Assembly: GCF_012927165.1 (NCBI RefSeq)
Contig: NZ_JABBGA010000003.1
Location: 62,001-126,000, forward strand
Length of the DNA stretch: 64,000 nucleotides
DNA from: Zoogloea dura
GTDB lineage: Bacteria > Pseudomonadota > Gammaproteobacteria > Burkholderiales > Rhodocyclaceae
Direction: 5' to 3'
A program made the position numbers and the translations under genes. The notes under the pieces are model-generated. The model had not been told where the DNA came from. It worked only from the letters and a program-made list of their open reading frames with translations, and did not search any database. Each line of letters starts with the position of its first letter. The stretch's first letter is position 1. Of this stretch, positions 2,026-20,756 are shown piece by piece.

Positions 2026-2038
2026 GGCGGCGCTCCGT

Positions 2039-2494: not shown

Positions 2495-3480
2495 GCGGCC
2501 AGGCTCCGCGGCGTGGTGTAGCGGGCGCCGCACTGCTTGTAGCAGTCGGTGGAGAACAGCACCGCGGCGGGGTAGGCCGACAGGCCGACCGCCTCGGCCA
2601 GCTCGGCGCGGCGCCGGGCCACGGCCTCGCGGTCCTGCCCGTGGATCATGCAGAACAGGTTGTGGGCCCAGTCCCGCTCGGGCCGGCGGCGGTAGCACAG
2701 GCTCACCCCATGGTGGCCGGCGAGGGCAGCACCGAGCGCGTCGACGTGGCCGTCGGGCACCGTCCACACGCACATGGCGTTGGCCTTCCAGCCCAGCTCC
2801 CGGTGGCGCACCACCACGCCAAAGCGGCGCACCGTGCCGTCGGCCAGCCAGTCAGCCAGGGTCGCCAGCACGCTTTGCTCGGTGAAGCCCGCCGCGTCGC
2901 CGAGGGTGCGGAAGGGCCGCGGCACCCAGGGGAGGCCCTCCTGCAGGCTCTCAATGAGGCGCCAGTCGGCCGTGCTCAGGGGACGCCGCGGCCGCCCCGT
3001 GGCCGGGGCATGACGGGTGCGCGCGCCGCTGGCCAGGTCGAAGCCGAGGTCGATGTGGTACTCCTGCACCAGGGGCAGGGCGATGGGCGGGCAGCCGGTG
3101 GCCTCGCCCATCTCGTCGAGCAGGGCGGACAGGGCCGGCTGGTCGGCGGCCCCGGCGACGAACCACAGGTTGTAGCGGTGCTCGCGCCGGTAGTTGTGAT
3201 TGACCCCGGCAAAGGCGCTGACCTGCGCTGCCACGCCGGCCAGGCGCTCCGGCGGCACGGCCATCGCGGCCAGGGTGCTGGCACCGATCCGGTTGGGAGC
3301 GAAGACCGCCCCGACCCGGCTGATCTTGCCTTCGTCGCGCAGCATGGTGAGGCGGGCCAGCACTTCGGCACCGTCGCGGCCGAGCCGCTCGCCGAGCGCC
3401 TCCCAGGGCCGGGGCTGCAGCGGAAAGCCGCGCTGGAACTCGTTGAGCAGGCGGAAATCGAGGGAGTCGCGGGCCAGCAT
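2491..3480 (-). CDS. nirDL: Fused siroheme decarboxylase NirDL (heme d1 synthesis)
   Basis: A 329-residue protein made of two tandem Lrp/AsnC-like units. The NirD unit (residues ~1-150) carries VNHNYRREHRYNLWFV; the NirL unit (~170-329) carries CYRRRPERDWAHNLFCMIHG and FSTDCYKQCGARY near the end. A linker rich in R, A, T and P (GARTRHAPATGRPRRP) joins them. NirD and NirL are separate genes in Pseudomonas and fused in Paracoccus-type organisms, where NirDL acts as a siroheme decarboxylase. The start MLARDSLDF lies 4 bases after the nirF stop. A longer frame upstream would run back through nirF and is not used. Confidence 0.92.
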   Translation of the reverse strand: MLARDSLDFRLLNEFQRGFPLQPRPWEALGERLGRDGAEVLARLTMLRDEGKISRVGAVFAPNRIGASTLAAMAVPPERLAGVAAQVSAFAGVNHNYRREHRYNLWFVAGAADQPALSALLDEMGEATGCPPIALPLVQEYHIDLGFDLASGARTRHAPATGRPRRPLSTADWRLIESLQEGLPWVPRPFRTLGDAAGFTEQSVLATLADWLADGTVRRFGVVVRHRELGWKANAMCVWTVPDGHVDALGAALAGHHGVSLCYRRRPERDWAHNLFCMIHGQDREAVARRRAELAEAVGLSAYPAAVLFSTDCYKQCGARYTTPRSLAA

Positions 3481-3484
3481 GGCG

Positions 3485-4684
3485 TCAGAACCCGATGCGC
3501 TGGCCACGGGCCGTGAAGAAGATGCCCGACGGCGCGTCGGCGGGCAGCTCCCGGCGCAGCGCAAAGCTGGCCGTATCCACCACGCTGATCCGGTTGCTGT
3601 CCCGCGAGGACAGCCACACGGCCTCGCCGCGCGGCGTGAATTCCATGTGCAGCACCGCCTTGCCGGGGCTGAAGGTATGCACCACGCGCTTCTCCAGGGT
3701 GTCGATGACCTGCACCCATTCGTTGTCGGGGAAGGCGAAGTTGACCCACACCTGGCGCCCGTCCGGCCGCGCCATCACAAACACCGGCTGGCCCTTGACC
3801 GGGATGCGGGCGCTCTCCGCCCAGCTCCGGGTGTCGGCCACCAGTACCTCGTGGCGGCCGATGGCGGGCAGCCAGGCCTGGCCGCCCGCCATTGCCCAGC
3901 CGCGCAGGTGGGGCATCTTGAAGACCGGCAGCTTCTCCTCGCCCTTGCCATAGCCGGCGAGGATCCTGCGCACACCGGTCTGGGGCTGCCACAGGTCGAG
4001 GAGCGACAGGCCGTCCTCGCCGAACAGACCGGCGATGAAGTAGCGCCCGTCCGGCGTGACCAGCCCGTCGTAGGGCTGGCGGCCGGCCGGAAAGCGGGTG
4101 GTGACGGGCTGGCGCGGATTGGAGAAGTCGGTGATGCGGATCTCGTCCGCGTCAAACAGCGCATACACGAAGCGCTGGCCGGAGACGTCGGCCAGGCCCA
4201 CCACCCGCGAGAATTTGCCCGGCGCGTACTCGGCGGGCACGTCGGCGAGCAGCGCCAGGGTGTCGGCGTCGAAGGCCTTGATGCCGCCCGGCTCGTAGTT
4301 CTGGGCCACCACCAGGCGGCCGTCCTGGGACACCGAGCCGCCGATGGAATTGCCGGCCTGGACGATGCGCCGGTCGATGCGGCGGGTCAGCAGATCCACC
4401 TTGGTGAGGCCGCCGTCGCGCCCGAACACGTAGGCGTAGCGGCCATCCCGGGAGAAGGCCACATGGGCGTGGGACAGGTCGCCGAGGCCCTCCACCGTGC
4501 CGAGGCGGCTGTCGTGGCTGTGCTCCACCACCTGCACCCGGCCGGCGGCGCGCTCGATGACCACCCCGAGATCGCCGGTGCCACGCAATTCGGGCGCGCT
4601 GCCAGACGTTATGGCAGGCGGAGGAGCCGAGGCGCAGGCCACCAGGCCCAGGGCCAGCAGCGGGGCGAACAGGCGCGCGCGCAT
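3485..4684 (-). CDS. nirF: NirF, heme d1 biosynthesis lipoprotein
   Basis: A 399-residue protein predicted to be exported and lipid-anchored: a short signal sequence ends in the lipobox LVAC (cleavage before C17). The rest is a beta-propeller relative of the d1 domain of NirS, with repeated blades such as AFSRDGRYAYVFGRDG and VTPDGRYFIAGLFGEDG. NirF acts late in heme d1 synthesis, on the periplasmic side, converting the dihydro-heme d1 stage according to recent family work. It lies between nirC (2-base gap) and nirDL (4-base gap), so the operon is tightly coupled. Its length is typical of the family. Confidence 0.93.
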   Translation of the reverse strand: MRARLFAPLLALGLVACASAPPPAITSGSAPELRGTGDLGVVIERAAGRVQVVEHSHDSRLGTVEGLGDLSHAHVAFSRDGRYAYVFGRDGGLTKVDLLTRRIDRRIVQAGNSIGGSVSQDGRLVVAQNYEPGGIKAFDADTLALLADVPAEYAPGKFSRVVGLADVSGQRFVYALFDADEIRITDFSNPRQPVTTRFPAGRQPYDGLVTPDGRYFIAGLFGEDGLSLLDLWQPQTGVRRILAGYGKGEEKLPVFKMPHLRGWAMAGGQAWLPAIGRHEVLVADTRSWAESARIPVKGQPVFVMARPDGRQVWVNFAFPDNEWVQVIDTLEKRVVHTFSPGKAVLHMEFTPRGEAVWLSSRDSNRISVVDTASFALRRELPADAPSGIFFTARGQRIGF

Positions 4685-4686
4685 GA

Positions 4687-5028
4687 TCAGGGCAGCTCCG
4701 GAAAGCCGCTCTTCAGGCGGGCGACGATCCAGCCCGCCTCGTCCTCGTCCACAAAGCGCTGCCAGCCCGGCATGGCCGTGCCGGGGCGGCCGTGGAGGAT
4801 GGTGGCGACCAGGAACTCGTCGGGCAGCTCGGCCAGGCGCGCCGGCAGCAGGTCGGGGCCCAGGCCGCCGGCCAGGCGCATGCCATGGCAGGAGCCGCAG
4901 TCCTGGCGGACCATGTGCACCAGCGCAGCCTGGCGTTCGGTGGCAGGCTCGGCCGCGGGGGCGGCGGTCACCGCCAGGGCGGTGAGGCCGAGCAGCACGG
5001 CCACGTGGATGAGCAGGGAACGGTCCAT
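4687..5028 (-). CDS. nirC: NirC, periplasmic c-type cytochrome (c55X)
   Basis: A 113-residue cytochrome c with an N-terminal signal peptide (residues ~1-26) and one heme-binding CxxCH site, CGSCH at C44/C47/H48. The likely methionine ligand lies in GRPGTAMPGW. Family work implicates NirC in heme d1 maturation or as an electron donor to NirS. It is the first gene of the minus-strand nir operon, and the next gene, nirF, starts 2 bases beyond its stop. The FNR/Dnr-type box at 5084-5097 lies upstream at the right distance for an activated promoter. Confidence 0.9.
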   Translation of the reverse strand: MDRSLLIHVAVLLGLTALAVTAAPAAEPATERQAALVHMVRQDCGSCHGMRLAGGLGPDLLPARLAELPDEFLVATILHGRPGTAMPGWQRFVDEDEAGWIVARLKSGFPELP

Positions 5029-5055
5029 CGCTGAGCTCCGGAGAATGACGCCATC

Positions 5056-5097
5056 ACATTAGGGCGCAGCCCTCAGCGGGTCATTGACCGCCATCAA
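5056..5097 (-). promoter_or_regulatory. FNR/Dnr-type box and -10 element of the nirC operon
   Basis: TTGAC-CGCC-ATCAA at 5084-5097 matches the FNR/CRP-family palindrome TTGAT-N4-ATCAA in nine of ten arm positions. On the minus strand a candidate -10, TAATGT, lies at 5061-5056, centred 32 bases from the box centre. This is the class II geometry (-41.5 to -9.5). It implies a start near 5049 and a ~20-nt leader before nirC. Whether FNR, Anr, Dnr or Nnr binds cannot be told from the box alone. Confidence 0.78.
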
Positions 5098-5155
5098 GAA
5101 GGCCGGCAGCTGCCGGTTTTGAGTATTCTTGCCGCCTCACCCCGCGCCCTCCGCC

Positions 5156-5737
<582 letters not shown>

Positions 5738-5773
5738 GGGCGTGTTGCTTATTCTGCGTTTGTGCGTTTGTCT

Positions 5774-6380
5774 GGGCGGCTTTCCTTTTTTCAGCGTTGG
5801 ATTGGCCGGGAGTTCGCCCCGGCGGGCGACCTCCTTTCTTGCTTCGCCAAGAAAGGAGGCAAAGAAGGCGACCCGCCTCCCCGGTCATTCGCTTACGCGA
5901 ATGACTGCCCTGCGCTGCTCACGCCAGGCGGCCGGCGCGGAACTCGCCCTGCGGGCTCAGACAGCCGCGCCGGACTACCCCGCCTGCCGTTCCGCTGCTC
6001 GGCGGGTCGGGACGGGCTTTTCGTAAGCACCGAGCCTTTGCTGAAGCCTTGGTTGGCTTTCATGGAAAAAGCAAAACCCCAGCGTCTCGCATCCACCGAC
6101 CTCTCCGTAGAGGCTCGGTGTCTGCTGAAAGCCCGTTCTGACCCGCCGAGCAGCGGAGTATCGGGCGGGGCTTTCCGGCGCGGCTGTCTGAGGAGGCGCA
6201 GCCGACGAGTTCCGCGCCGGCCGCCCGATGCGAGCAGCGCAGGGGAGTCGTCCGCTACGCGGACGACCGGGGAAGCCGGGTCGCCTTTCTTTCCCCCTTT
6301 CTTTGGCGACGCAAAGAAAGGGGTCGCCTGCCGGGGCGAATTCCCGGCCAATTCAAGGCGGAAAAAAGGCAAGCCGACCA
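5774..6380. repeat. Large imperfect inverted repeat (~265-bp arms) in an 850-bp gene-free gap
   Basis: The stretch 5738-6584 holds no credible gene. Its left arm (about 5774-6036) is the reverse complement of its right arm (about 6112-6380) over most of its length, with small differences and a ~75-base centre. Matching landmarks are ATTGGCCGGGAGTTCGCCCC on the left versus its complement near 6335-6355, and CCGCTGCTCGGCGGGTC near 5994 versus its complement near 6144-6160. Smaller hairpins lie inside the arms (CTTTCTTTGG...CAAAGAAAG near 6298-6326). The long frames crossing it (for example 5762-6571) have odd composition and stem from the palindrome. I believe similar sequences recur in beta- and gammaproteobacterial genomes, but this is from memory. 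Confidence 0.8.
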
Positions 6381-6531
6381 GCAAAAGCTCCACAGGCCAA
6401 TACCCACTGCAGGCCCATGCACAGAGCCGAAAGCCGGATTCATGGGGTGACGAGCCCCGGCGACGGGGCTCCAAGGCCTTCTCTCGCGCGGCGGCGGGCC
6501 TTGGGGGGGTGTGCCGCGGCCCGCCGCCCGG

Positions 6532-6560
6532 CAAAAGAAAAGGCGGCCGAAGCCGCCTCA
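6532..6560 (-). terminator. Intrinsic terminator after nirM
   Basis: Read on the minus strand, the stem GGCGGCTTCGGCCGCC (tight TTCG-type loop region) is followed directly by TTTTCTTTT. It lies 25 bases beyond the nirM stop codon, in the right place and orientation to end the nirS-nirM transcript. Confidence 0.85.
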
Positions 6561-6584
6561 TGGATCGATGACCAAAGCTCGCGC

Positions 6585-6902
6585 TCAGCCCTTCAGGATC
6601 CACCCCACCACGTCCTTCAGGTCTGCGTCGCTGATCTTCTCGGCGGCGTTGGGCGGCATCGGGATCGGGCCCCAGACGCCGGAGCCGCCCTTGCGGACCT
6701 TGTCGCTGAGCTTGGCGACGGCGTCGCCCTGGCCCTTGTACTTGGCCGCAATGTCCTTGAAGGCCGGGCCGACCATCTTCTTGTCCATGGTGTGACAGGC
6801 CATGCAGCCGGCCTTCTGGGCGGCGGCGGCCGGGTCGGCGGCGAGGGCGCTGCCGCTGGCGGCGGTGGCCAGCAGGGCGGCGAGAACAAACGCGTATTTC
6901 AT
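6585..6902 (-). CDS. nirM: Cytochrome c551-type electron donor NirM
   Basis: A 105-residue class I cytochrome c. The signal peptide (residues 1-21) ends SALA-A. The heme site is CMACH (C33, C36, H37) and the axial methionine is M82 in GPIPMPPN, a pattern typical of c551/c8 cytochromes. It carries electrons in the periplasm to nitrite reductase NirS. It is encoded just downstream of nirS, 66 bases away, with its own ribosome-binding site AGGAGA. A stem-loop without a T-run lies in that gap and may set the nirS:nirM ratio. An intrinsic terminator follows. Confidence 0.93.
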   Translation of the reverse strand: MKYAFVLAALLATAASGSALAADPAAAAQKAGCMACHTMDKKMVGPAFKDIAAKYKGQGDAVAKLSDKVRKGGSGVWGPIPMPPNAAEKISDADLKDVVGWILKG

Positions 6903-6927
6903 TTTTTGAGTCTCCTGGCAGAAAGAC

Positions 6928-6956
6928 GCCGCCGACCCGGCAGGCCGGGCGGCGGC
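6928..6956 (-). promoter_or_regulatory. Stem-loop between nirS and nirM
   Basis: On the minus strand GCCGCC-G-CCCGGC and GCCGGG-T-CGGCGGC can pair around a two-base loop, giving a very stable GC-rich hairpin just after the nirS stop. No T-run follows, so it is unlikely to be a full terminator. Partial termination or 3' protection of the nirS message are plausible roles (inference). Confidence 0.55.
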
Positions 6957-6968
6957 AGGCAGCGACGA

Positions 6969-8784
<1,816 letters not shown>

Positions 8785-8842
8785 GTTAAGAAACGCCCCC
8801 CCGCTGCTAGATTGCGGTCGTCATGAATCCGGGAGTTCCGCC

Positions 8843-9739
8843 ATGCCTCCGTCCGCCTCAATCTCATCCGGCATGCCGGCCCCGGTCACGCTGCGCAGCC
8901 TCTTCGAGCTGCTCGGCGGGCGCATGGACGAAGGCCTGCAGGCGGGCCGCCCTGCCATGAGGACGACACCATCCGTCGGGCATGTCGCCCTGGTGGGGGC
9001 CGGCCCGGGCGATCCGGAACTGCTCACCCTGCGCGCCGCCCGCCTGATCGGGCAGGCCGGAGTACTGGTGGTGGATCACCTGGTCAGCGATGGGGTGCTG
9101 GATCTGGCCCGGCCGGGGGCGGAGCGGATCTATGTGGGCAAGGAGTCCGGGCACCACACCCTGCCCCAGGAGGAGATCAACGCCCTGCTGGTCCGCCTCG
9201 GGCGGGAAGAACGCCAGGTGGTGCGCCTGAAGGGCGGCGACCCCTACATCTTCGGGCGCGGTGGAGAGGAGGTGGAGGCCCTGCTCGAGGCCGGCATCTC
9301 CTTCGAGGTGGTGCCGGGCATCACCGCGGCCTGCGGGGCCTCGGCCTATGCCGGCATCCCCCTCACCCACCGGGACCATGCGCGCTCGGTGGTCTTTGCC
9401 ACCGGCCACCGGCGGGCCGGGCAGGACGCCCTGGACTGGTCGGTGCTGGCCCGTCCGCAGCAGACCGCGGTGATCTACATGGGCGTGGGCCAGCTGGCCG
9501 CCCACTGCGCCGCCCTGATCGACCACGGCCGCGGCGCCGCCACCCCGGCGGCCCTTGTGGAGAACGCCACCTCGCCGCGCCAGCGGGTGGTCACCGGCAC
9601 CCTCGAGACCCTGCCGGAAATCGCTGCCCAGGCCGGCATCCGGCCACCGGCGCTGCTGATCGTCGGCGAGGTGGTGAGCCTGGCCGGACGCCTCCAGCCT
9701 ACCGCCAGCCGCCCTGCAGAGGCCGCGCTGGCTGTCTGA
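8843..9739 (+). CDS. nirE: Uroporphyrinogen-III C-methyltransferase, NirE type
   Basis: A 298-residue SAM-dependent methyltransferase that converts uroporphyrinogen III to precorrin-2, the entry to siroheme and heme d1. Motifs in order: VGAGPGDPELLTL, RLKGGDPYIFGRGGEE, PGITAACGASAYAGIPLTHR and the C-terminal PALLIVGEVV. The catalytic core starts at about residue 48, after an extension with no clear function. Start chosen at the ATG of MPPSASISSG, with GGGAG upstream; the ATG at 8873 is an alternative. The sequence alone cannot separate CobA, the SUMT domain of CysG and NirE. The nirE name rests on its position divergent from nirS and the shared FNR-type box. Confidence 0.85.
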   Translation: MPPSASISSGMPAPVTLRSLFELLGGRMDEGLQAGRPAMRTTPSVGHVALVGAGPGDPELLTLRAARLIGQAGVLVVDHLVSDGVLDLARPGAERIYVGKESGHHTLPQEEINALLVRLGREERQVVRLKGGDPYIFGRGGEEVEALLEAGISFEVVPGITAACGASAYAGIPLTHRDHARSVVFATGHRRAGQDALDWSVLARPQQTAVIYMGVGQLAAHCAALIDHGRGAATPAALVENATSPRQRVVTGTLETLPEIAAQAGIRPPALLIVGEVVSLAGRLQPTASRPAEAALAV

Positions 9740-9776
9740 CCCCTATCCCGGAGCACGCCGGCTCCGGCACGGGATC

Positions 9777-9822
9777 GCACCATGCCGGTGCGCTTCCCGC
9801 AATCCATTCTGGTGCATGCACC
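9777..9822 (+). promoter_or_regulatory. NtrC-like enhancer dyads upstream of the amidoligase cluster
   Basis: GCACC-N5-GGTGC at 9777-9791 is a perfect dyad with NtrC-type half-sites and spacing (family consensus TGCAC-N7-GTGCA). About 32 bases on, roughly three helical turns, lies a second palindrome, GGTGCATGCACC (9811-9822), with the same half-sites in the other order. They lie 150-185 bases upstream of the predicted sigma-54 start, the usual range for enhancer binding. NtrC is the best candidate from half-site shape; another enhancer-binding protein is possible. Confidence 0.6.
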
Positions 9823-9941
9823 GCAACGGGTTGCCACCCGAGGCGGGACTTCGGGCTATTTCTTCACGCCACAGGCATTCTGGCGACTTCGCACAGCACT
9901 TCATCCGCAAAACCTGCGCAACAAGACAGGCGTAAACCACT

Positions 9942-9957
9942 TGGCGTGAAGTTTGCT
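9942..9957 (+). promoter_or_regulatory. Sigma-54 (RpoN) promoter of the amidoligase cluster
   Basis: TGGCGTGAAGTTTGCT matches the sigma-54 consensus TGGCACG-N4-TTGCW at all but two less conserved positions. The invariant GG (9943-9944) and GC (9955-9956) are exactly 10 bases apart. The predicted start near 9968 leaves a ~38-nt leader before the GTG-preceded ATG-type start at 10006. The 266 bases between nirE and this cluster hold no gene. Confidence 0.75.
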
Positions 9958-10005
9958 AGACGGATACACAAGCCTGAAACCCGCAGCTCAAGAACGGAGT
10001 AGCCC

Positions 10006-13000
10006 GTGACCATCCATGTCGCCCTCAATCACCTGACCTCCTACAAGTACGACCGCCCGATCAACGTGGGTCCCCAGGTCGTCCGTCTGCGCCCCGCTCC
10101 CCACAGCCGCACCCGCATCCTGTCCTACTCGCTGCGCGTGCTGCCCAAGCCCCACTTCATCAACTGGCAACAGGACCCGCAGGCCAACTACCTGGCCCGC
10201 CTGGTCTTCCCGGAGAAGGTCACCGAATTCAGCGTCGAGGTGGACCTGGTCGCCGAAATGTCGGTGATCAACCCCTTCGACTTCTTCCTGGAGCCCGAGG
10301 CCGAGAATTTCCCCTTCGAGTACGCAGGCGCCCTCAGCCACGAGCTGGCCCCGTACCGCCTGAAGGAAGAAGCCACCCCCGAATTCCAGAAGTACCTGGA
10401 CACCATTCCCCGCGACAAGCTGCGCATGGTGGACTTCCTGGTCAAGATCAACGCCGACCTGCAGAAGCACATCGGCTACGTGATCCGCATGGAGCCCGGC
10501 GTGCAGACGCCCGAGGAGACCCTCGCCAAGCGCACCGGCTCGTGCCGCGACTCGGCCTGGCTGCTGGTCCAGCTGCTGCGCCACCTGGGCCTGGCGGCGC
10601 GCTTCGTGTCCGGCTACCTGATCCAGTTGAAGGCCGACGTGAAGTCCCTCGACGGCCCCTCCGGCACCGAGGTGGACTTCACCGACCTGCACGCCTGGAC
10701 CGAGGTCTACCTGCCCGGCGCCGGCTGGGTCGGCCTCGACCCGACCTCCGGCCTGTTCGCCGGTGAGGGCCACATCCCGCTGGCCGCCTCGCCCGACCCC
10801 TCCTCCGCAGCCCCGGTGTCCGGCCTGATCGATGAGTGCGAGTGCGAGTTCGAGCACGTCATGAAGGTCACCCGGGTCAAGGAAGCGCCCCGCGTCACCA
10901 AGCCCTACACCGAAGAGCAGTGGGCCGAGATCGAAGCCCTCGGCCATCTCATCGACACCGACATCGAAGCCCACGACATGCGCCTGACCATGGGCGGCGA
11001 GCCGACCTTCGTGTCGATCGACGACCCGGACGGCGCCGAATGGAACACCGAGGCGATGGGCCCCACCAAGCGCGTCCGCGCCGAGGACCTCTACCACCGC
11101 CTGCGCGACAAGTACGCCCCCACCGGCCTGGCCCACTTCGGCCAGGGCAAGTGGTACCCCGGCGAGCAGCTGCCGCGCTGGTCGCTGACCTGCTTCTGGC
11201 GCAAGGACGGCCAGCCGGTGTGGACCCGCCCCGACCTGATCGCCGATGCCTCCACCCCCGGTGAAGTCACCGTGGACAAGGCCCACACCTTCCTCGCCGG
11301 CGTGGCCTCGCGCCTGGCCGTGGACCAGCGCCGGGTCTTCCCCGCCTACGAGGATGCCTTCTACTACCTGTGGCGCGAGCGCCGCCTGCCGGGCAACGTG
11401 GATCCCTTCGATGCCCGCCTCGACGACCCGCTCGAGCGCGACCGCATCCGCCGCGTGTATGAGCACGGCCTGCCCAACCCGGTCGGCTACGTGCTGCCCA
11501 TCTCCATCAACAACTGGACCGGCGCCTGGCAGACCGGGCCGTGGTTCCTGCGCGACGAGCGCTGCTACCTGATCCCCGGCGACTCCCCGGTGGGCTACCG
11601 CCTGCCGCTGGACTCCCAGCCCTGGGTGACGAAGGGCGAGTACCCCTACGTCCACCCGACGGACAGCCACCAGGTCTTCCCGCCGCTGCCCGAGTACAAG
11701 GCGATCCGCCGCCAGCTGCCGGGCGGCCAGACCGCGGTGCTCAACGCCCTGTCGGACGACGAACCCGGCTTCGGCTCCTCCGCTGCGGCCCGCGCCGCCG
11801 CCGCCCTGAAGGCCGCCCGCGACGCCGAGAAGCAGTCCCCCACCGACCGCCAGCCGGCCCAGTTCGAGTCCGCCAACTGGATCGTCCGCACCGCCATGTG
11901 CGCAGAGACCCGCAACGGCACCATGCACATCTTCATGCCGCCGCTGTCGAGCCTGGAGAAGTACCTGGAACTGGTCACCGCCATCGAAGCCACCGCCGAG
12001 GACCTCGCCATGCCGGTGGTCATCGAGGGCTACGAGCCGCCCTCCGACCCACGCCTGCAGCACTTCCGCATCACTCCCGACCCGGGCGTGATCGAGGTCA
12101 ACATCCACCCGTCCAGCAACTGGGAAGAGCTGGTGGACCGCACCACCCACCTGTATGAGGCGGCCCATTACTCGCGCCTGACCACCGAGAAGTTCATGGT
12201 GGATGGCCGCCACACCGGCACCGGCGGCGGCAACCACTTCGTGCTCGGCGGCGCCACGCCGTCCGATTCGCCCTTCCTGCGGCGCCCGGACCTGCTGCGC
12301 AGCCTGGTCTCCTACTGGCACAACCACCCCAGCCTGTCTTACCTGTTCTCCGGCCTGTTCATCGGCCCGACCAGCCAGGCGCCGCGCATCGACGAAGCCC
12401 GCAACGACTCCGTATATGAAATCGAGACGGCCTTCCGCCAGTTCCCGCCCCCGGGCGAGAGCCTGCAGCCGTGGCTGATCGACCGCCTGCTGCGCAACCT
12501 GCTGATCGACGTCACCGGCAACACCCACCGCTCCGAGTTCTGCATCGACAAGCTCTACTCGCCCGACGGCCCCACCGGCCGCCTCGGCCTGCTCGAGCTG
12601 CGCGCCTTCGAGATGCCGCCCCATGCCCGCATGTCGCTGGCCCAGCAGCTCCTGCTGCGCGGCCTGCTGGCCCGCTTCTGGGAAACCCCCTACGCGCCGG
12701 AACGCCTGGTGCGCTGGGGCACCGAGCTGCACGACCGCTTCCTGCTGCCGCACTTCGTGCAGCAGGACTTCAGCGACGTGATGGAAGACATGCAGGCCCA
12801 CGGCCTGGACTTCAAGCCGGAGTGGTTTGCCCCCCACATGGAGTTCCGCTTCCCCAAGATCGGCGACTTCGCGGTGCGCGGCATCGAGGTGGAGCTGCGC
12901 AGCGCCCTCGAGCCCTGGCATGTGATGGGTGAGGAAGGCGCCATCGGCGGCACCGTGCGCTTCGTCGATTCGTCGGTGGAACGCCTGCAGGTCAAGGTCA

Positions 13001-13386
13001 GCGGCATGTCCGACGACCGCTTCCAGCTCGCCGTGAATGGCCGCAGCGTGCCGCTGCAGCCCACCGGCACCGTGGGCGAGCACGTGGCCGGGGTGCGCTA
13101 CCGCGCCTGGCAACCGCCGTCCTGCCTGCACCCGACCATCCCGTCCCACGCCCCGCTGGTCTTCGACCTGGTGGATACCTGGACCGGGCGCTCCCTGGGC
13201 GGCTGCCAGTACCACGTGTCGCACCCGGGCGGGCGCAGCTTCGAGACCTTCCCGATCAATGCCTTCGAAGCCGAGAGCCGCCGCCTGGCCCGCTTCTTCC
13301 GCATGGGCCACACCCCGGGCGCGCCCAAGGTGACGACCTCCCCGGTCGAGCGGGAATTCCCCTTCACCCTCGACCTGCGTCGCTGA
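10006..13386 (+). CDS. Transglutaminase-like / DUF2126 putative amidoligase
   Basis: A 1126-residue two-part protein. Residues ~1-290 form a bacterial transglutaminase-like region with a complete catalytic triad: C180 ([12 protein letters not shown]), H229 ([12 protein letters not shown]) and D245 (WVGLDPTSG). Residues ~315-1126 are DUF2126 (from [18 protein letters not shown]), a family classed as a putative amidoligase. No signal peptide is seen, so it is likely cytoplasmic. It is the first of three genes (10006-16999) whose families co-occur widely and are proposed, from comparative genomics, to build or modify peptides. Substrate and product are unknown. The start codon is a GTG (frame begins GTG-ACC-ATC) after the GGAG-like sequence at 9994-9998. 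A sigma-54 promoter lies just upstream. Confidence 0.88.
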
Positions 13387-13410
13387 GCAACTCAAGCGCG
13401 ACAGGCGGAT

Positions 13411-13460
13411 GCAACGACACCCGCTGCGGAGGCACCCGCCTCCGCAGCCCGGGTCGTTGC
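13411..13460 (+). promoter_or_regulatory. Long stem-loop between the first two amidoligase-cluster genes
   Basis: GCAACGAC (13411-13418) pairs with GTCGTTGC (13453-13460), and inside it GCTGCGGAGGC pairs perfectly with GCCTCCGCAGC around an ACCC loop. The result is a ~50-nt, very stable hairpin in the 129-base gap between the genes. No T-run follows. It may act as a processing or stability element that sets unequal expression of the two messages (inference). Confidence 0.6.
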
Positions 13461-13515
13461 GTCAACGCCAACTCTGCCATTTCCCGAATGCCGGTAAGAG
13501 TGTTAGCTTCTGCCG

Positions 13516-16041
13516 ATGCCCAGTTCGATCCTCTCCCACTATCCCTACCGTCCCGACAGCTATGACGAGCTCTTCGGCGAAGACGGCGTACGCCCCCACT
13601 GGCAGGAATTCCTCGACCACATCGACGAATCCAGCGCCGATGTACTGAAGGCCCGCGCGGCCCAGCTGGCGCGGGGAATCCAGCAGAACGGGGTCACCTA
13701 CAACGTCTATGCCGACCCCCGCGGCACCGACCGCCCGTGGTCCCTCGACCTGCTCCCGCTGATCCTTCCCACCGAGGAATGGCGCGGCATTTCCGCCGCC
13801 ATCAGCCAGCGCGTACGCCTGCTCGACGCCCTGCTGGGCGACCTTTACGGTGACCAGACGACCCTCGCCGAGGGGCTGCTGCCCCCCGAACTGGTCTTTG
13901 GACACAAAGGTTTTCATTGGCCGTGCAAGGGCATCAAGCCCGCCGGTGGCGCCTTCCTGCATCTCTACGCCGCCGACCTGGCACGCTCGCCGGACGGGCA
14001 TTGGTGGGTCATCGCCGACCGCACCCAGTCCCCCTCCGGGGCCGGCTATGCACTGGAAAACCGCCTGCTGGTGTCGCGCGCCTTCCCCGACCTGTTCCGC
14101 GACCTGCAGGTGCAGACCCTGGCCGGCTTCTTCCGCGGCCTGCAGCGCAGCCTGGGCAGCCAGGCCCCGACCGACGGCGAGCATCCCCTGACGGTGCTGC
14201 TGACCCCGGGGCCCTTCAACGAAACCTACTTCGAACACGTCTACCTGGCCCGCTACCTGGGTTTTCCCCTGGTCGAGGGCCAGGACCTGACGGTGCGCCA
14301 CGACACCGTCTATCTCAAGACCGTCTCCGGCCTGAAGCGGGTGCATGCCATCCTGCGCCGCCTCGACGACGACTTCTGCGACCCGGTCGAGCTGCGGGCC
14401 GATTCTGCTCTGGGCGTGCCCGGCCTGCTCGGCGCGGTGCGCGCCGGCCGCGTGCTGGTGGCCAACGCGCTGGGCAGCGGCCTGCTCGAATCCGCCGCCC
14501 TGCCCGGCTTCCTGCCCGGCATCTCGCGCCACTTGCTGGGCGAGGAGCTGATGATGCCCTCGGTGGCCACCTGGTGGTGCGGCGAGGAGCCGGCCAAAGC
14601 CGTGGTGCTCAAGCACCTGCGCGAGCTGGTCATCAAGCCCACCTTCCCCGGCGGCGGCAGCGACGTGATCTTTGGCGACCAGCTCGATGCCCCCCAGTTG
14701 GCTGCCCTCGCCGCGCGCATCGAGGCCGACCCCTCCGCCTTCGTGGCCCAGGAGCTGGTCAAACTGTCGCGCGCCCCGGCATGGACCGGCGGCCACCGGC
14801 GCAAGCTGATGACCCGGGCCATGGGCCTGCGCGTCTATGCGGCGATCACGCCGGAAGGCTACAGCGTGCTGCCCGGTGGCCTGGCCCGGGTGGCCGGCAT
14901 GGACAACACCCGCATCCTGACCATGCAGAAGGGCGGCAGCAGCAAGGACACCTGGGTGCCGTCCGACGGCCCGGTGTCCACCTTCAGCCTGCTGCAGAAC
15001 ACTCTGCGGGTCAGCGACCTGATCGGCGAAACCGGCACCCTGTCGTCGCGCCTGGCCGAGAACCTGTTCTGGTTCGGCCGCTACGGCGAGCGCTGCGACG
15101 CGGTCGCCCGGCTGGCCCGGCTGGCCCTGTCGCGCCTCTCCGAGGGGCGCCGCACCGAAAGGGCCGGCGCCCTGTCGGTGATGCTCGACCTGGCCGCCGG
15201 TGCCGGACTGATCGAGGGAGAAGTCTCCGCCACCCCGCTCGCCAAGGCCGAGCTCGACCTGTTCCGGGCCGTCCTCGACCGCCGCGCCGAATGCGGCCTG
15301 GCGGCCAACCTGCAGCGCCTGACCTGGTGTGCCACCCAGGCCCGCGAACACCTGTCGCTGGACCACTGGCACGCCCTCAAACGCCTGTCGGCAGAGATCG
15401 AGAGCGCCCGCGGGCGGGTCAGCGACGTCTCCGCCCTGCTCGAATTCCTCGACGAAGCCCTGACCACCTTTGTGTCCCTGTCCGGCTTCGCCATGGACAA
15501 CATGACCCGTGACATGGGCTGGCGCCTGCACATCGTGGGCCGTCGCCTGGAGCGCCTGGACAACCTGTCCGGCCGCCTGGCGCGCTTCCTGCGGCGCTAC
15601 GCCGAGGTGGCCGGCCCGCTGCACCGGGAGCTGGCGGTAGAGGCCCTGCTGGAGCTGTGCGACTCGATCATCACCTACCGGACCCGCTACCGGGCCCAGC
15701 CCGAGCTGCTGCCCGCCATGCACCTGCTCACCATGGATGATGCCAACCCCCACGCCCTGGCCTTCCAGGCCCGCATGCTCAGCAACTACCTCAAGACCTT
15801 CGAGACCGACGGTGTGGAGCTGGGCGTGGCGGAACTCGACCGGGCCTTCGGCGCCGTCCAGGCCTTCCCCTGGGCACACCTTGAGTCCCTCTGCCCCGAA
15901 CCCGAACGGCGCGAAGCCGTCCTGCAGCTGGCCGATCTGCTGGATCACCTGGCCCGGGCCGGCCGCCACCTGTCCGATCGCCTGGCCATGCGCTTTTTCA
16001 GCCACGTGGGCATCGCCGGCCAGGCCACCTTCGCCGCCTGA
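13516..16041 (+). CDS. Circularly permuted ATP-grasp / Alpha-E fusion protein
   Basis: An 841-residue protein fusing two families that are often separate genes. Residues ~60-470 are a circularly permuted ATP-grasp enzyme (DUF404/DUF407 type), with ITYN-type start NGVTYNVYADPRG and the nucleotide-binding stretch ELVIKPTFPGGGSDV. Residues ~505-835 are an all-helical Alpha-E (DUF403) domain beginning SSRLAENLFWFGRYGERCD. ATP-grasp enzymes of this type are predicted to form amide or peptide bonds using ATP; Alpha-E has no known activity and always travels with them. It sits 129 bases after the DUF2126 gene and 25 bases before the second transglutaminase. The fusion directly supports joint function. 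Confidence 0.9.
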   Translation: MPSSILSHYPYRPDSYDELFGEDGVRPHWQEFLDHIDESSADVLKARAAQLARGIQQNGVTYNVYADPRGTDRPWSLDLLPLILPTEEWRGISAAISQRVRLLDALLGDLYGDQTTLAEGLLPPELVFGHKGFHWPCKGIKPAGGAFLHLYAADLARSPDGHWWVIADRTQSPSGAGYALENRLLVSRAFPDLFRDLQVQTLAGFFRGLQRSLGSQAPTDGEHPLTVLLTPGPFNETYFEHVYLARYLGFPLVEGQDLTVRHDTVYLKTVSGLKRVHAILRRLDDDFCDPVELRADSALGVPGLLGAVRAGRVLVANALGSGLLESAALPGFLPGISRHLLGEELMMPSVATWWCGEEPAKAVVLKHLRELVIKPTFPGGGSDVIFGDQLDAPQLAALAARIEADPSAFVAQELVKLSRAPAWTGGHRRKLMTRAMGLRVYAAITPEGYSVLPGGLARVAGMDNTRILTMQKGGSSKDTWVPSDGPVSTFSLLQNTLRVSDLIGETGTLSSRLAENLFWFGRYGERCDAVARLARLALSRLSEGRRTERAGALSVMLDLAAGAGLIEGEVSATPLAKAELDLFRAVLDRRAECGLAANLQRLTWCATQAREHLSLDHWHALKRLSAEIESARGRVSDVSALLEFLDEALTTFVSLSGFAMDNMTRDMGWRLHIVGRRLERLDNLSGRLARFLRRYAEVAGPLHRELAVEALLELCDSIITYRTRYRAQPELLPAMHLLTMDDANPHALAFQARMLSNYLKTFETDGVELGVAELDRAFGAVQAFPWAHLESLCPEPERREAVLQLADLLDHLARAGRHLSDRLAMRFFSHVGIAGQATFAA

Positions 16042-16066
16042 GCGGCCAGCAAGGATCTGTTCCCTC

Positions 16067-16999
16067 ATGACCCGCCGCGTCGCCTATACCGTCATCCACG
16101 AGACCGAGTACCCCGCCTGCGGCGTCCCGGTCTCGCTGGCCCAGCACCTGCTCCACCTGATCCCCCGGAAACTGCCGTGGCAGACCCGCGAGTCGGGCCA
16201 GATCACCATCGAGCCGGCCCTGGCCCAGCTGGAGGAAGGCGAGGACGCCTTCGGCAACCCGGTGGCCTGGCTGTCCCTCGACACCCCCCACGATGGACTG
16301 CTCGTACGCGCCGAAAGCCATGTCACGGTGATCGGCCGGGAGCTGCCCAAGCCCGACGACTCCCCCCTCTGGGAGAGCGTGCGCGACAGCCTGCGCTACC
16401 ACCCCAAGCCCCGCAGCGCCGACTCCCTGGACGCCCTGCGCTACCTCTATGCCTCGCCCCGGGTGCCCCGTGACGCACTACTGGCCGAATTCGCCGCCAC
16501 CGCCTTCAAGCCGGGCCTGCCCCTGCTGGTCGCCACCAAGGCGCTGATGGACCTGATCTTCAAGACCTTCACCTTCGATGCCAAGGCCACCGAGGTGAGC
16601 ACCCCGGTGCACGAGGTGCTCAAGCGCAAGCGCGGTGTCTGCCAGGATTTTGCCCACCTGATGATTGCCGCCCTGCGCTCGGTCGGCATCCCGGCCCGCT
16701 ACATGTCCGGCTACCTGCTGACCGACCCACCGCCGGGCAAGCCCCGCCTGATCGGCGCCGACGCATCCCACGCCTGGGTCTCCGTGTGGTGCCCACGCAA
16801 TGGCTGGGTGGAATACGACCCCACCAACGGCATCCAGCCCGATGTGCGTCACGTCACCCTGGGCTGGGGGCGGGATTTCCAGGACGTCTCGCCGCTACGC
16901 GGGGTGATCCTCGGCGGCCTCGCCCAGGCCCCTGAAGTGCGCGTCACCGTGATGCCGGACTCGGAGAAGGCAGCCCCGCGGAGCCCGGCCGGAGCCTGA
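16067..16999 (+). CDS. Transglutaminase-like cysteine protease/transferase
   Basis: A 310-residue bacterial transglutaminase-like protein. The N-terminal beta-rich part starts RRVAYTVIHETEY; the catalytic core shows C192 (RGVCQDFAHLM), H235 (ASHAWVSVW) and D251 (VEYDPTNG). No signal peptide. Start at 16067, preceded by AAGGAT; a longer reading frame reaching back to 15737 overlaps the upstream gene and is rejected. Enzymes of this superfamily cleave or transfer at amide bonds. In this cluster it may hydrolyse or remodel the peptide made by its neighbours. Its last 56 bases overlap the end of the convergent beta-helix gene, which is unusual in this window. Confidence 0.9.
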   Translation: MTRRVAYTVIHETEYPACGVPVSLAQHLLHLIPRKLPWQTRESGQITIEPALAQLEEGEDAFGNPVAWLSLDTPHDGLLVRAESHVTVIGRELPKPDDSPLWESVRDSLRYHPKPRSADSLDALRYLYASPRVPRDALLAEFAATAFKPGLPLLVATKALMDLIFKTFTFDAKATEVSTPVHEVLKRKRGVCQDFAHLMIAALRSVGIPARYMSGYLLTDPPPGKPRLIGADASHAWVSVWCPRNGWVEYDPTNGIQPDVRHVTLGWGRDFQDVSPLRGVILGGLAQAPEVRVTVMPDSEKAAPRSPAGA

Positions 17000-18152
17000 T
17001 CCCGGCACTCTGAAAGGCCCCCGGCGCCCACTTCGCCGGCACAAGCAGGGGCGTCGTCCCGACCGGGAAGCTGAACTCCGCAGTGGGCACGAGCTCGGCC
17101 TCGGTGGTCGGCGACGGCATGTCGACCTGCCCCCGCAGCGACGAATCCTCCGGCAGGCTGAACGCCAGACTCTCCGTCTCCAGGGCCCCCGGGCGCAGCA
17201 GATGATTGCCCTGGTGCGTGCCGGGCAGCACCAGGTCGAACAGCCCCAGGCCAGCCAGCAGGTTGTTGCGCGTCACCACCGTGGTGTTCGCCGGCAGGCG
17301 GCTGCCCCACACCCGGGCGAACAGGGCCGGACGCCAGCCCTCGCTGATCAGGGTGTTATGCGACAGCACCAGCCGGTTTTCCGGCCACACGGACGATTCG
17401 GCGCCGTAGGCCACCATGGTGATGTTGGAACTGGCGCGGCTCTGCCCGATCACGTTGCCCACCACCAGCGCCACCCCGCCATTGGGAAACTCGAGCTCGT
17501 AGGAAGCGCGGCCGTCCCGCCCGTCCACCAGCAGGTTGTAGCGGATCTCGCTACGCGCCGCCCGGCTCTTCAGGAGATGCCCCAGGTAGCCGCCGTGGAA
17601 GCGGCTGCCCTCCACCGACAGGTGGCGGATCCGCCCGGCATAGAGCAGGTGGTGCAGGGACAGACTGTCCTGTGGCGCGCGGCTGAAAATGCTGTCCCGC
17701 ACCTGCAGCTCGGTGTCGGCATCGTTGCCGGTGAGGATGGCCGTCTCATTGCCCTCGAAGACGCAGTTGCCGATCTCCAGGCTCCCTTTCTCGAGACGGA
17801 TCCCGGCACCATTGTGGTCTGTGGCACGGGCACCGCGAAACTCGATGTTGGCCACCTTGAAGCGCCCGCCGGCAAACACCCAGATGCCCTTGCCCTCGGC
17901 ACTGCTACCCGCCGCCTCGAGCACCGGACGCTGGCCGATCCCCCGGATCTCGAGGCTGCGCTGCCTCCACACCGCTACATCGCCCCGGTAGGTACCGGGC
18001 TGGATGAGCACGGTATCGCCGTCCTTCGCCAACCGGGCGGCCTCGGCGATGCGGGTGATGGCCTCCAGCGGGCCGACCGTAAGGGTCGCCGCCTGGGCCG
18101 ACGCACTGCACGCCGCCAGCACGACAGCGATCAATGGGATCGATGGTTTCAC
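16944..18152 (-). CDS. Exported right-handed parallel beta-helix protein
   Basis: A 402-residue protein with a short N-terminal signal. Both a signal peptidase I site (ASAQA-A) and a lipobox (LAAC) can be read, so lipoprotein status is open. The body is a series of short beta-helix coils, e.g. GIRLEKGSLEIGNCVFEGNE and LVLSHNTLISEGWRPALFAR, as in pectate-lyase-like folds. The start is a GTG preceded by AGGAG; an ATG two bases further upstream is out of frame. It follows the polymerase gene by 33 bases and probably shares its transcript. Such proteins often bind or cleave polysaccharide, but catalytic residues cannot be assigned. It converges on, and overlaps by 56 bases, the transglutaminase gene. 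Confidence 0.78.
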   Translation of the reverse strand: MKPSIPLIAVVLAACSASAQAATLTVGPLEAITRIAEAARLAKDGDTVLIQPGTYRGDVAVWRQRSLEIRGIGQRPVLEAAGSSAEGKGIWVFAGGRFKVANIEFRGARATDHNGAGIRLEKGSLEIGNCVFEGNETAILTGNDADTELQVRDSIFSRAPQDSLSLHHLLYAGRIRHLSVEGSRFHGGYLGHLLKSRAARSEIRYNLLVDGRDGRASYELEFPNGGVALVVGNVIGQSRASSNITMVAYGAESSVWPENRLVLSHNTLISEGWRPALFARVWGSRLPANTTVVTRNNLLAGLGLFDLVLPGTHQGNHLLRPGALETESLAFSLPEDSSLRGQVDMPSPTTEAELVPTAEFSFPVGTTPLLVPAKWAPGAFQSAGIRLRPGSAGLPSPSPASR

Positions 18153-18185
18153 ATCTGCACTCCTGTTTCGGTCACGCCCGCCGGA

Positions 18186-20582
18186 CTAGCCCGGCCCGGA
18201 CTGCACCGGGTCTGGCGGGAGACGAAGATTCAAACCCAGCCACAGAACCAGCAGCAGCAGCAGCGTGATGCGGGGCATGTCCACCAGGCTGTCCACCAGG
18301 CCCACCGTCACCCCGCCCGCCAGCGAAGCCAGCAGGACGGGGGCCAGCGGATGACCGCGGGTCCGCCGGCCGGCCAGATGGACCCCCGCCGCCCCCAGCG
18401 CCGCCACCAGCGCGATCATGCCCAGCAGGCCCTGTTCCACATAGGTCTGCAGAAAAACATTCTTGGCGTGCCAGGGCAAGTGGTCGTGGTCGGACGAGAA
18501 GAACCAGAAATCACTGCCACGCTCGAAATCCCCATTGCGCAACAGGCTGCGCAGACGGCCATCGAAGAGTTGCAGTTCATCGAAATCCACCGGCCCCTTG
18601 CCCAGCACGCTGACCGACAACACCGCGGGGCGGGGCGGCCAGCCGGCGGGGCGGAAGGTGGCACCATCGAGGCGGATCTCCACCTCCTGCCAGTTTGCGT
18701 CCCCCCTCACCGGGATCGCCTGCTCGGTGCAGTCCTCCGGGTACAGCAGATGCTTGCGGCACACCGCCACGGCGATCTGGATGGCTCCCGCGCTGCGCAG
18801 CCTGGCCCTGAGCTGGAAAGGCGCTCGCGGATCGCCCTCGAGCCGCTGCATCAGGTGCAGATGCTCGCCGAACCCCGTCACCCGGCGCTCCCCGCCAAGC
18901 TGCAGGTAACGGTGGCCAGGGGCGCCCTGCAAGGCCAGGAAGCCCGGCACCCCCGGATCCGTCACGTTCCAGAAATAGCTGTCGGGATAACGCCCGAGCC
19001 CCAGCCCGAAGGCCGTGCCGCCAAGGTCGCGCACCAGTCCGAGGCTATGCTCGAAGTGCCTCATGCGCCCCTTGAAGTCATCCTCCGTAGACGCCAGGCG
19101 GTTACCCATGTAAGCGCTCGCCAGGGTGGCGACGACCATACCCCCCGCCACCAGCAACCCGGCCACCACGTGCAGGTCACGCAGCCGGGGCACCCACAGG
19201 GGGCGTACCCCGGCGGACTGGGCGATCAGCACGCCCCCCACCATCCCGACGGCCAGCAGCACACCTGGGAGACCCGTCATCTCGCCCCAGAAGGCATTCA
19301 CCAGCACGGCATGGGCTGCGAGCCATGCCAGCAGGGCCGCCACCAGCGCCGGAGGGGCCGTCAGGCGGCCACGCAGCCCACCGAGCAGGACCACGGCCGT
19401 GATACACCAGGCCAGGCCATAAACCACGTAAACCCCCTTGGGCAACCACCAGGCCAGCACGCCCGTCACGGCAGCCAGCAGCAGGCCCGCCAGCCCGCCT
19501 CCGGCCAGCACGCCCCCCTTGCCGTCACGGAGCACGCCGCCCCCCAGGTAAACGAGCAGCAACAGACCGGCAAAGGCCGCCATGCCCCGATAACCTCCCG
19601 ACTGGAAGGCCAGGGCGCATCCTGCCAGGCCCGCCACCGCGAGCACGATCAGCACCAGCGCATGGTCGCCCCCCTCATCCGCACCCGCCCGCCGCGCCGG
19701 GTGACGCCACGCCGCCACCGCCAGCACCGTGCCCGACACCAGCATCGAGGCATAGACGATGCGCGAAAAAGTGGTGAACAAGGCATAGCTGCCAAGCCCC
19801 ACCAGGAACAGGGCCACCACCCGCGCCCACTTGCTGCGGGCGGCGTGCAAGTGCGCCAAGGCAAAAGGAAAGCTCAGGCTGAGCCAGGCATCCAGGGCGG
19901 CACCGCCGACGTGCATCTCCCAGAACAGGGCCGCACTCCGGTAGTCTGCCGAGAAGTTGGTCAGGCCGGGGAAGGCCATCCGCTCCCACAGGGCCCCCAG
20001 CGCACAGGTCCCCAGGCCGAAGGTCACGCCCGCCGCAAAACGGCGCAGGGCCAGCTCGCCATCTCGCCGGATCGCCAGGTGCAGGAAGGGGATCAGTGCA
20101 AAGGCCAGGACGTAGCCCTTGGCCACCCGCAGGCTGTTGAGTGGCGTGCCATAGCCCACCAGGCTGCCGGCATCGAGCGGCGGAAAGGGCTGCAGGCCGC
20201 GCAGGGTGGATATCACCACGGCGGCCGCCAGCAGACCGAAGCAGGCCAGCGCGGCTGCCCTCAGCTTGACCGGGGCCCTGCCCTGCAGCGTCGGCGGCGG
20301 CGGCGCCAGCAACTCGCGCAGGCCAAGACCGGCCAGCGTGGCCAGCGCCAGGGCATCGCTCTCGTTGATGTGGATCTGGCCGGTCCATGGCGCCAGGTCG
20401 ATCACCGGCCACAGGGCCGGCAGCAACACCAGCCACAGGGCCGGCTGGATCAGGACCAGCACCATATAAACCGCCAGAATGACACCCGCCAGCCAGGGGC
20501 CGAAGGGATACACGGCAAGCCAAGCTGCCAGCGCCACCAGGGCCACCAGCGCCACGCCCCCGCCGTAAATACGCGGGGCCAT
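18186..20582 (-). CDS. O-antigen-ligase/polymerase-type membrane protein with periplasmic insertion
   Basis: A ~798-residue polytopic inner-membrane protein with about a dozen hydrophobic segments in the first ~490 residues. The region ~490-715 is largely soluble. It holds a beta-sandwich-like stretch (residues ~560-680, e.g. WQEVEIRLDGATFRPAGW, FDELQLFDGRL) and ends in LPWHAKNVFLQTYVEQGLLG. That segment matches the conserved loop of O-antigen ligases and Wzy-type polymerases, with H705 at the functional position. Classic members are ~400-450 residues long, so this one is much enlarged. Start is uncertain: I chose the ATG of MAPRIYGG just before the first hydrophobic segment; the frame continues to 20741. 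Probable role: export-side glycan polymerisation or transfer. Confidence 0.75.
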   Translation of the reverse strand: MAPRIYGGGVALVALVALAAWLAVYPFGPWLAGVILAVYMVLVLIQPALWLVLLPALWPVIDLAPWTGQIHINESDALALATLAGLGLRELLAPPPPTLQGRAPVKLRAAALACFGLLAAAVVISTLRGLQPFPPLDAGSLVGYGTPLNSLRVAKGYVLAFALIPFLHLAIRRDGELALRRFAAGVTFGLGTCALGALWERMAFPGLTNFSADYRSAALFWEMHVGGAALDAWLSLSFPFALAHLHAARSKWARVVALFLVGLGSYALFTTFSRIVYASMLVSGTVLAVAAWRHPARRAGADEGGDHALVLIVLAVAGLAGCALAFQSGGYRGMAAFAGLLLLVYLGGGVLRDGKGGVLAGGGLAGLLLAAVTGVLAWWLPKGVYVVYGLAWCITAVVLLGGLRGRLTAPPALVAALLAWLAAHAVLVNAFWGEMTGLPGVLLAVGMVGGVLIAQSAGVRPLWVPRLRDLHVVAGLLVAGGMVVATLASAYMGNRLASTEDDFKGRMRHFEHSLGLVRDLGGTAFGLGLGRYPDSYFWNVTDPGVPGFLALQGAPGHRYLQLGGERRVTGFGEHLHLMQRLEGDPRAPFQLRARLRSAGAIQIAVAVCRKHLLYPEDCTEQAIPVRGDANWQEVEIRLDGATFRPAGWPPRPAVLSVSVLGKGPVDFDELQLFDGRLRSLLRNGDFERGSDFWFFSSDHDHLPWHAKNVFLQTYVEQGLLGMIALVAALGAAGVHLAGRRTRGHPLAPVLLASLAGGVTVGLVDSLVDMPRITLLLLLVLWLGLNLRLPPDPVQSGPG

Positions 20583-20756
20583 GGCGGAGGCATGGGAACG
20601 AGGATGGGCAAGAGTCGCCAAGATCGGACTTCCGGCAGCGGGATCAGGCGTCGATCCTAACCGATAGGGCTTGCAATTGTCGTGTTCCGCATACCCGCAA
20701 CTTGACCCGGACGCCGCCCCAACGCAGGATTGCGTGTCCATCCGACCTCAAAGCCC

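Follow-up and report, generated by a model that had tools for sequence, protein, structure and literature searches.

The locus described in this work is located in a 64,000-nucleotide (nt) stretch, hereafter the window, of the 5.83 Mb genome of Zoogloea dura. It consists of three co-oriented genes that encode transglutaminase-like, DUF2126, ATP-grasp, and Alpha-E domains, and these genes are preceded by a candidate sigma-54 promoter and predicted sites for NtrC. The features are listed below with their positions in the window.

9776..9792, forward strand: predicted NtrC site 1, CGCACCATGCCGGTGCG, with 2 of 12 arm bases differing from TGCACC-N5-GGTGCA
9800..9816, forward strand: probable weak NtrC site 2, CAATCCATTCTGGTGCA, with the right arm only; placed by the spacing of GGTGCR arms in Zoogloea; matrix score 2.3
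9811..9822, no strand assigned: palindrome GGTGCATGCACC of an earlier note on this DNA, probably incidental; arms reversed, matrix score -42
9837..9855, forward strand: terminator-like hairpin, 3' of a methyltransferase gene and between the NtrC sites and the promoter; consensus match only
9942..9957, forward strand: predicted sigma-54 promoter (-24/-12), TGGCGTGAAGTTTGCT; consensus match and conservation across the family
10006..13386, forward strand: gene 1, transglutaminase-like domain fused to DUF2126 (putative amidoligase); Pfam PF09899 (1368 bits), PF08379, PF01841
13516..16041, forward strand: gene 2, circularly permuted ATP-grasp ligase fused to Alpha-E; PF14403, PF04174, PF04168; PDB 3n6x, E 4e-88
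16067..16999, forward strand: gene 3, transglutaminase-like protein; PF01841, PF08379; start placed by comparison with relatives

The Pfam domains bear out the gene cluster as the earlier note had described it (DUF2126-transglutaminase, ATP-grasp/Alpha-E, transglutaminase). The Cys-His-Asp triads of gene 1 and gene 3 are intact, and both are invariant among the aligned family segments with the window's included (73/73 and 65/65, respectively). The start of gene 3 is more likely 16067 than 15737 because alignments with the relatives begin at about residue 115 of the long open reading frame, where the methionine corresponds to 16067. The assignment of gene 2 as an ATP-grasp ligase by its domains is solid; the part that matches PDB 3n6x, which is named as a putative glutathionylspermidine synthase, is its ATP-grasp half.

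The box TGGCGTGAAGTTTGCT is located 64 nt upstream of gene 1. Its GG (9943-9944) and GC (9955-9956) are separated by exactly 10 bases, as the earlier note had read. It is the sole match without mismatches to TGGCRYGN4TTGCW in the 64 kb, where 32 matches are found at up to two mismatches; this loose count is not above chance (43 expected). The whole genome has 22 exact matches to the consensus and 6 to the reversed pattern, so the box alone proves little. The transcript start is predicted near 9968, and a simple scan of 9600-10100 gave no sigma-70 promoter. Both rpoN (475 bits, cut-off 277) and ntrC (705 bits, cut-off 558.6) are present in the same genome.

The conservation of the box was examined across the family of the window, in which 80 of 150 genomes have DUF2126. 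Three genomes with fragments only (G014, G068, and G093) were left out. The 78 loci comprised 77 that were fetched (G091 twice) and the window, and six were dropped because their upstream sequence was too short or residue 1 was unmatched, which left 72 usable loci. The box matrix was entered by hand from the sigma-54 consensus, and the threshold was a score of at least 9. The element that the earlier note proposed recurs upstream of the orthologous clusters: a box is found 45-80 nt before the DUF2126 gene in 47 of the 72 loci and, with one locus per genus, in 24 of 40 genera. Five neighbouring intervals of equal size in the same 72 loci gave 0, 1, 1, 0, and 2 boxes, and the antisense strand gave at most 1 per interval. 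In the per-genus set, the mean over the scored positions of the box is 1.39 bits, a value partly selected by the matrix itself; the four spacer bases have 0.05-0.36 bits and the flanks 0.05 bits. Recent shared ancestry is therefore not the cause of the conservation of the box, since the flanks carry no information. Among the 25 loci without a box before DUF2126, a co-oriented ATP-grasp gene lies upstream within the cluster in 16, and a box precedes that gene in 13 of the 16 (antisense 0/16). The box is thus found at either of the two places in 60 of the 72 loci. By this conservation, the sigma-54 box is confirmed at the sequence level as real and beyond chance.

The NtrC sites were scored with a dyad matrix built from 43 dyads of glnA promoters of the family. 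Site 1 is the top dyad in the 64 kb (score 15.0; next 10.6). Its score was reached by 2 of 5000 shuffles of the 202-nt region; the shuffles of upstream regions keep single-base composition only. Across the family, 37 of the 47 box-bearing loci but 5 of the 25 boxless loci have dyads that beat their own shuffles with this matrix (p<=0.05). TGCACC-N5-GGTGCA with at most 2 of 12 mismatches is found in 24 of the 47 box-bearing loci, and any other spacer (0 to 12) is found in at most 5. The spacer-5 dyads also lead at up to one mismatch (10 versus 0) and at up to three mismatches (38 versus at most 20). In all five Zoogloea regions (the window, L075, L077, L079, and L192), a second GGTGCR arm follows that of site 1 at a distance of 24 nt, and therefore the second site is more likely 9800-9816.

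Two dyads had been read in the earlier note. GCACC-N5-GGTGC is present at 9777-9791 and GGTGCATGCACC at 9811-9822, and their centres are 32.5 nt apart, in agreement with the spacing of about 32 bases that had been given. The distances from their first bases to the box are 165 and 131 nt; the stated 150-185 bases therefore fit roughly, and only when counted from the predicted start near 9968. The first dyad is retained in site 1. The second dyad is rejected as an NtrC site by its reversed arms, its score of -42, and the better-placed 9800-9816. The matrix scoring suggested in the same note hence favours site 1, which ranks first, and not the second dyad; with a matrix made from glnA boxes only, the box ranks fifth.

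The glnA promoters of the family served as positive control. Matches over the cut-off were found in 58 of 61 genomes and 30 loci were fetched. The sigma-54 box is found in 30/30, a spacer-5 dyad in 26/30, and two dyads 30-32 nt apart in 12/30. The glnA of the same genome (L184) has a box and two dyads 31 nt apart. The operon resembles these promoters in having a sigma-54 box with spacer-5 dyads of the same arms. It differs in the 24-nt spacing of its sites in Zoogloea and in the weakness of the second one. Separately, a box, TGGCACAGCTCATGCT, precedes one of five P-II matches (L181, C18:4488-4805) by 115 nt.

Beyond the family, 80 named loci were considered. Seventeen were left out by hand (L196, L200, L205, L256, and 13 further Pseudomonas loci), and 15 of the remaining 63 were separated because their titles and identities pointed to Rhodocyclales, which left 48 loci; this sorting was done by eye and some metagenome-assembled genomes are perhaps misplaced. 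A box is found 45-100 nt upstream in 31 of the 48 loci (16/16 Pseudomonas and 15/32 others). Other intervals in the same loci gave 1-2 boxes, and one antisense interval gave 8.

The regulation of related clusters has been published. The cluster I35_5080-5083 of Burkholderia cenocepacia H111, whose proteins are transglutaminase-like (one is described as large), is a shared target of NtrC and sigma-54 in nitrogen limitation, and BCAM1235 and BCAM1236 are down by log2 9.4 and 6.0 in a B. cenocepacia ntrC mutant (PMC5491218). The likeness to the window operon lies in transglutaminase-like proteins under NtrC and sigma-54, and BCAM1236 would be a DUF2126 protein. The ATP-grasp gene that heads a cluster of DUF2126, ATP-grasp-Alpha-E, and transglutaminase genes in a related record, Burkholderia sp. 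TSV86 (L255), is preceded by a box and a 2-mismatch dyad. The upstream ATP-grasp gene comes first in the Burkholderia cluster, which has no box within 330 nt of DUF2126, whereas DUF2126 comes first in Zoogloea. B. arboris (L260) has no box at the threshold used. Dependence of the window operon on NtrC and sigma-54 is thus supported through published work in a relative. The regulation is of a known kind because such control of a transglutaminase cluster has already been published for B. cenocepacia. As far as the literature searches show, the exact sites, the family-wide footprint, and the link of both to the DUF2126 module are new. The open-licence literature searched gave no mention of DUF2126 or COG4196, and that on P. 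phymatum and P. stutzeri gave no match to the searched terms. A marine DUF paper reports that these domains correlate with urea-metabolism domains, and the sole transglutaminase passage in a Caulobacter paper concerns hvyA.

The Anbu operon (ATP-grasp, Alpha-E, transglutaminase, and Anbu; PP_2685-2688 in Pseudomonas putida) is another close comparison. It shares ATP-grasp, Alpha-E, and transglutaminase with the window unit and is known to be induced in nitrogen limitation. The difference is that Anbu is present there and absent from the window unit, which has DUF2126. PP_2686-2688 are up 11-15 fold in wild type under nitrogen limitation, with ntrB/ntrC given as putative regulator, and PP_2685 changes 1.12 fold (PMC7801951). 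Nitrogen-sensitive promoters in another publication include those of PP_2685, a proteasome beta subunit, and PP_2688, a circularly permuted ATP-grasp protein (PMC8050072). The Anbu operon, its nitrogen induction, and, as proposals, ideas of tagging or ammonia release are given in papers on Anbu (PMC5666114, PMC6376114). COG3484, a proteasome-type protease, is among the enriched targets in a 2025 sigma-54 survey (PMC12316311).

The Zoogloea genome has proteasome-family matches only on C78 and C56, and the Anbu label was given by eye. The Anbu-like gene (L149:9724-10476, forward strand; Proteasome family by eye) comes after phenylalanyl-tRNA synthetase genes. Control of Anbu by the same switch in this genome was rejected, as the 400 nt upstream of this gene have no box or dyad. 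A second pair of ATP-grasp and Alpha-E genes is found near the end of contig C4 (L303:1026-1976 and 1980-3572, reverse strand). About 60 nt upstream of the pair is TGGCATGCTTTTAGCT, which is itself preceded by a 3-mismatch dyad at a distance of 67 nt.

With a probability of roughly 0.8, the three genes form a unit under NtrC/sigma-54 control in nitrogen shortage. The features read directly from the DNA and its translations are the box, site 1, the conservation of both, the domains, and the intact triads, each of them as predicted above. The three genes would be carried on a single transcript that is switched on in nitrogen shortage. Phosphorylated NtrC would bind 9776-9792 and probably also the weak 9800-9816, and the DNA would loop between these sites and the promoter. 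The ATPase of NtrC would then open the sigma-54 polymerase waiting at 9942-9957, and the operon would be silent with plentiful ammonium. The nitrogen-regulated architecture proposed in the earlier note is in this way upheld by the conservation, the glnA-like dyads, and the B. cenocepacia ntrC mutant; the rpoN mutant of P. putida and the misread second dyad tell against it.

Several findings weigh against NtrC/sigma-54 control of the unit. The box is absent from both places in 12 of the 72 family loci. No co-oriented upstream ATP-grasp gene was seen in nine of these 12, and five of the nine (L087, L102, L108, L125, and L133) have, by eye, a near-consensus element at the expected position in which the first G of GG is lost. 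Site 2 of the window is weak, with 4 mismatches. The glnA-only box matrix gives the box of the window a score of 8.4, fifth in the 64 kb; this matrix is a biased yardstick because glnA boxes rarely carry TTGC, and the fifth rank still stands. Spacer-5 dyads are not enriched outside Rhodocyclales (4/48 versus 5 for another spacer). A class-wide sample of 30 fetched loci, 29 without the window's own and 28 after one with 5 nt of upstream sequence was dropped, is patchy: the best box (score at least 9) is located 61-118 nt upstream in 8 of the 28 and elsewhere in 7, and a dyad is found in 3. PP_2686-2688 are up 14-20 fold in an rpoN mutant of P. putida as well, as are urtA and nasA (PMC7801951); either sigma-54 dependence or the value of that experiment as a test of it is thereby called into question. 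The predicted promoter is firm for the family and for the Pseudomonas loci, with patchy occurrence at greater distance. As a separate observation, nine loci (L087, L102, L105, L108, L110, L125, L132, L133, and L138) keep GCAC...TTGC before DUF2126 and have T, C, or A as the first base of GG; such promoters are perhaps weakened or changed.

The same findings bear on the alternatives. An enhancer-binding protein other than NtrC may activate the sigma-54 promoter: the genome has about two dozen matches to the central domain of such proteins, 23 of the 47 box-bearing loci have no dyad at up to two mismatches, and the dyads are not enriched outside the family. This is improbable, as the operon dyads match the glnA dyads in arms and spacer, the glnA-made matrix separates box-bearing from other loci, and the B. 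cenocepacia cluster responds to ntrC (PMC5491218). That nitrogen limitation induces the unit via another promoter, with sigma-54 dispensable, is more improbable still. The induction of the related operon in the P. putida rpoN mutant suggests it, but urtA and nasA were likewise induced without rpoN (PMC7801951), so the effect is not special to the Anbu operon; the conserved box, the sigma-54 dependence in B. cenocepacia (PMC5491218), and the lack of a sigma-70 promoter in the simple scan also argue against it. Accidental occurrence of box and dyad in 64 kb, which the 6 reversed versus 22 forward genome matches allow for a single box, is contradicted by the position and conservation of the box, the rank of site 1, and the family-wide footprint, and is hardly credible.

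The neighbourhood upstream of the operon (2039-9739) has genes for cytochrome cd1, NirD/L-like, and uroporphyrinogen-III methyltransferase proteins, so a denitrification (nir) cluster borders the operon. Assimilatory nitrate genes as neighbours were ruled out, as the upstream cytochrome cd1 gene is NirS-like and on the other strand. Read-through from the methyltransferase gene (8771-9739) is unlikely because the terminator-like hairpin (one found, shuffle mean 0.3) lies between. Downstream, 17202-20741 has long open frames on both strands (1152 amino acids forward and 851 reverse) with no Pfam or NCBIfam match. Elsewhere, NifV- and NifH-like proteins (by eye) are encoded downstream of exact sigma-54 boxes (L048 and L050), and therefore the organism may fix nitrogen.

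The function of the unit is less certain than its regulation. DUF2126 may have a glutamine-synthetase-like ligase fold. When the DUF2126 protein was compared by sequence with solved structures, only its transglutaminase part matched, weakly, and DUF2126 itself had no solved relative. The predicted model of DUF2126 has a predicted local distance difference test score (pLDDT) of 69.9 and a predicted template modelling score (pTM) of 0.74. Several of the hits in its fold search are glutamine synthetases and one is a bifunctional glutathione synthetase, none with E <0.3 and with antibody and receptor folds intermixed. The model of a smaller sub-domain is poor and its fold search gave nothing significant, and a profile comparison of DUF2126 with GlnA gave no match. 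As neither the two models, with a fold search for each, nor the profile comparison gave anything significant, the glutamine-synthetase fold is not taken as proven. The ligase role is a hint, given by the Pfam label and by structural resemblance in non-significant fold matches. Some genomes of the family also encode another DUF2126-type protein, which is shorter, at about 709-791 amino acids (about 310-350 bits) (G024:C47, G035:C356, G049:C31, G067:C1, G085:C869, G093:C37, and G115:C1).

The ATP-grasp ligase, Alpha-E, and transglutaminase are encoded together in the window unit, and peptide-synthesis clusters of ATP-grasp, amidoligase, and transglutaminase were reportedly described by Iyer et al. 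in 2009. We tentatively suggest, at somewhat less than even odds, that the enzymes act together on a small peptide or protein, on which they form an amide or isopeptide link and trim or transfer it. The nitrogen-containing peptide of the earlier note, made or recycled when nitrogen is scarce, would be compatible with the ATP-grasp ligase and the intact transglutaminase triads. The enzymes may instead break or recycle amides, as transglutaminase-like amidases or peptidases that free nitrogen, with the ligases for repair. The two intact cysteine-enzyme triads, the nitrogen control of the operon, and the ammonia release by transglutaminase that was proposed for the Anbu operon (PMC5666114, PMC6376114) are consistent with such breakdown, but the ATP-consuming ligase in the same unit points to synthesis, and we consider breakdown rather unlikely.

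If the enzymes do form such links, the unit could be a second, Anbu-independent ligation system of nitrogen starvation, which makes an undescribed starvation-specific amide or isopeptide conjugate, either a reserve peptide or a protein mark, under direct NtrC control across the family and its relatives. We consider this possibility less likely than not. These enzyme clusters are widespread, and the conserved base-level NtrC/sigma-54 switch names the condition under which to look. The substrate of the ligation is therefore directly testable in ammonium-limited cells.

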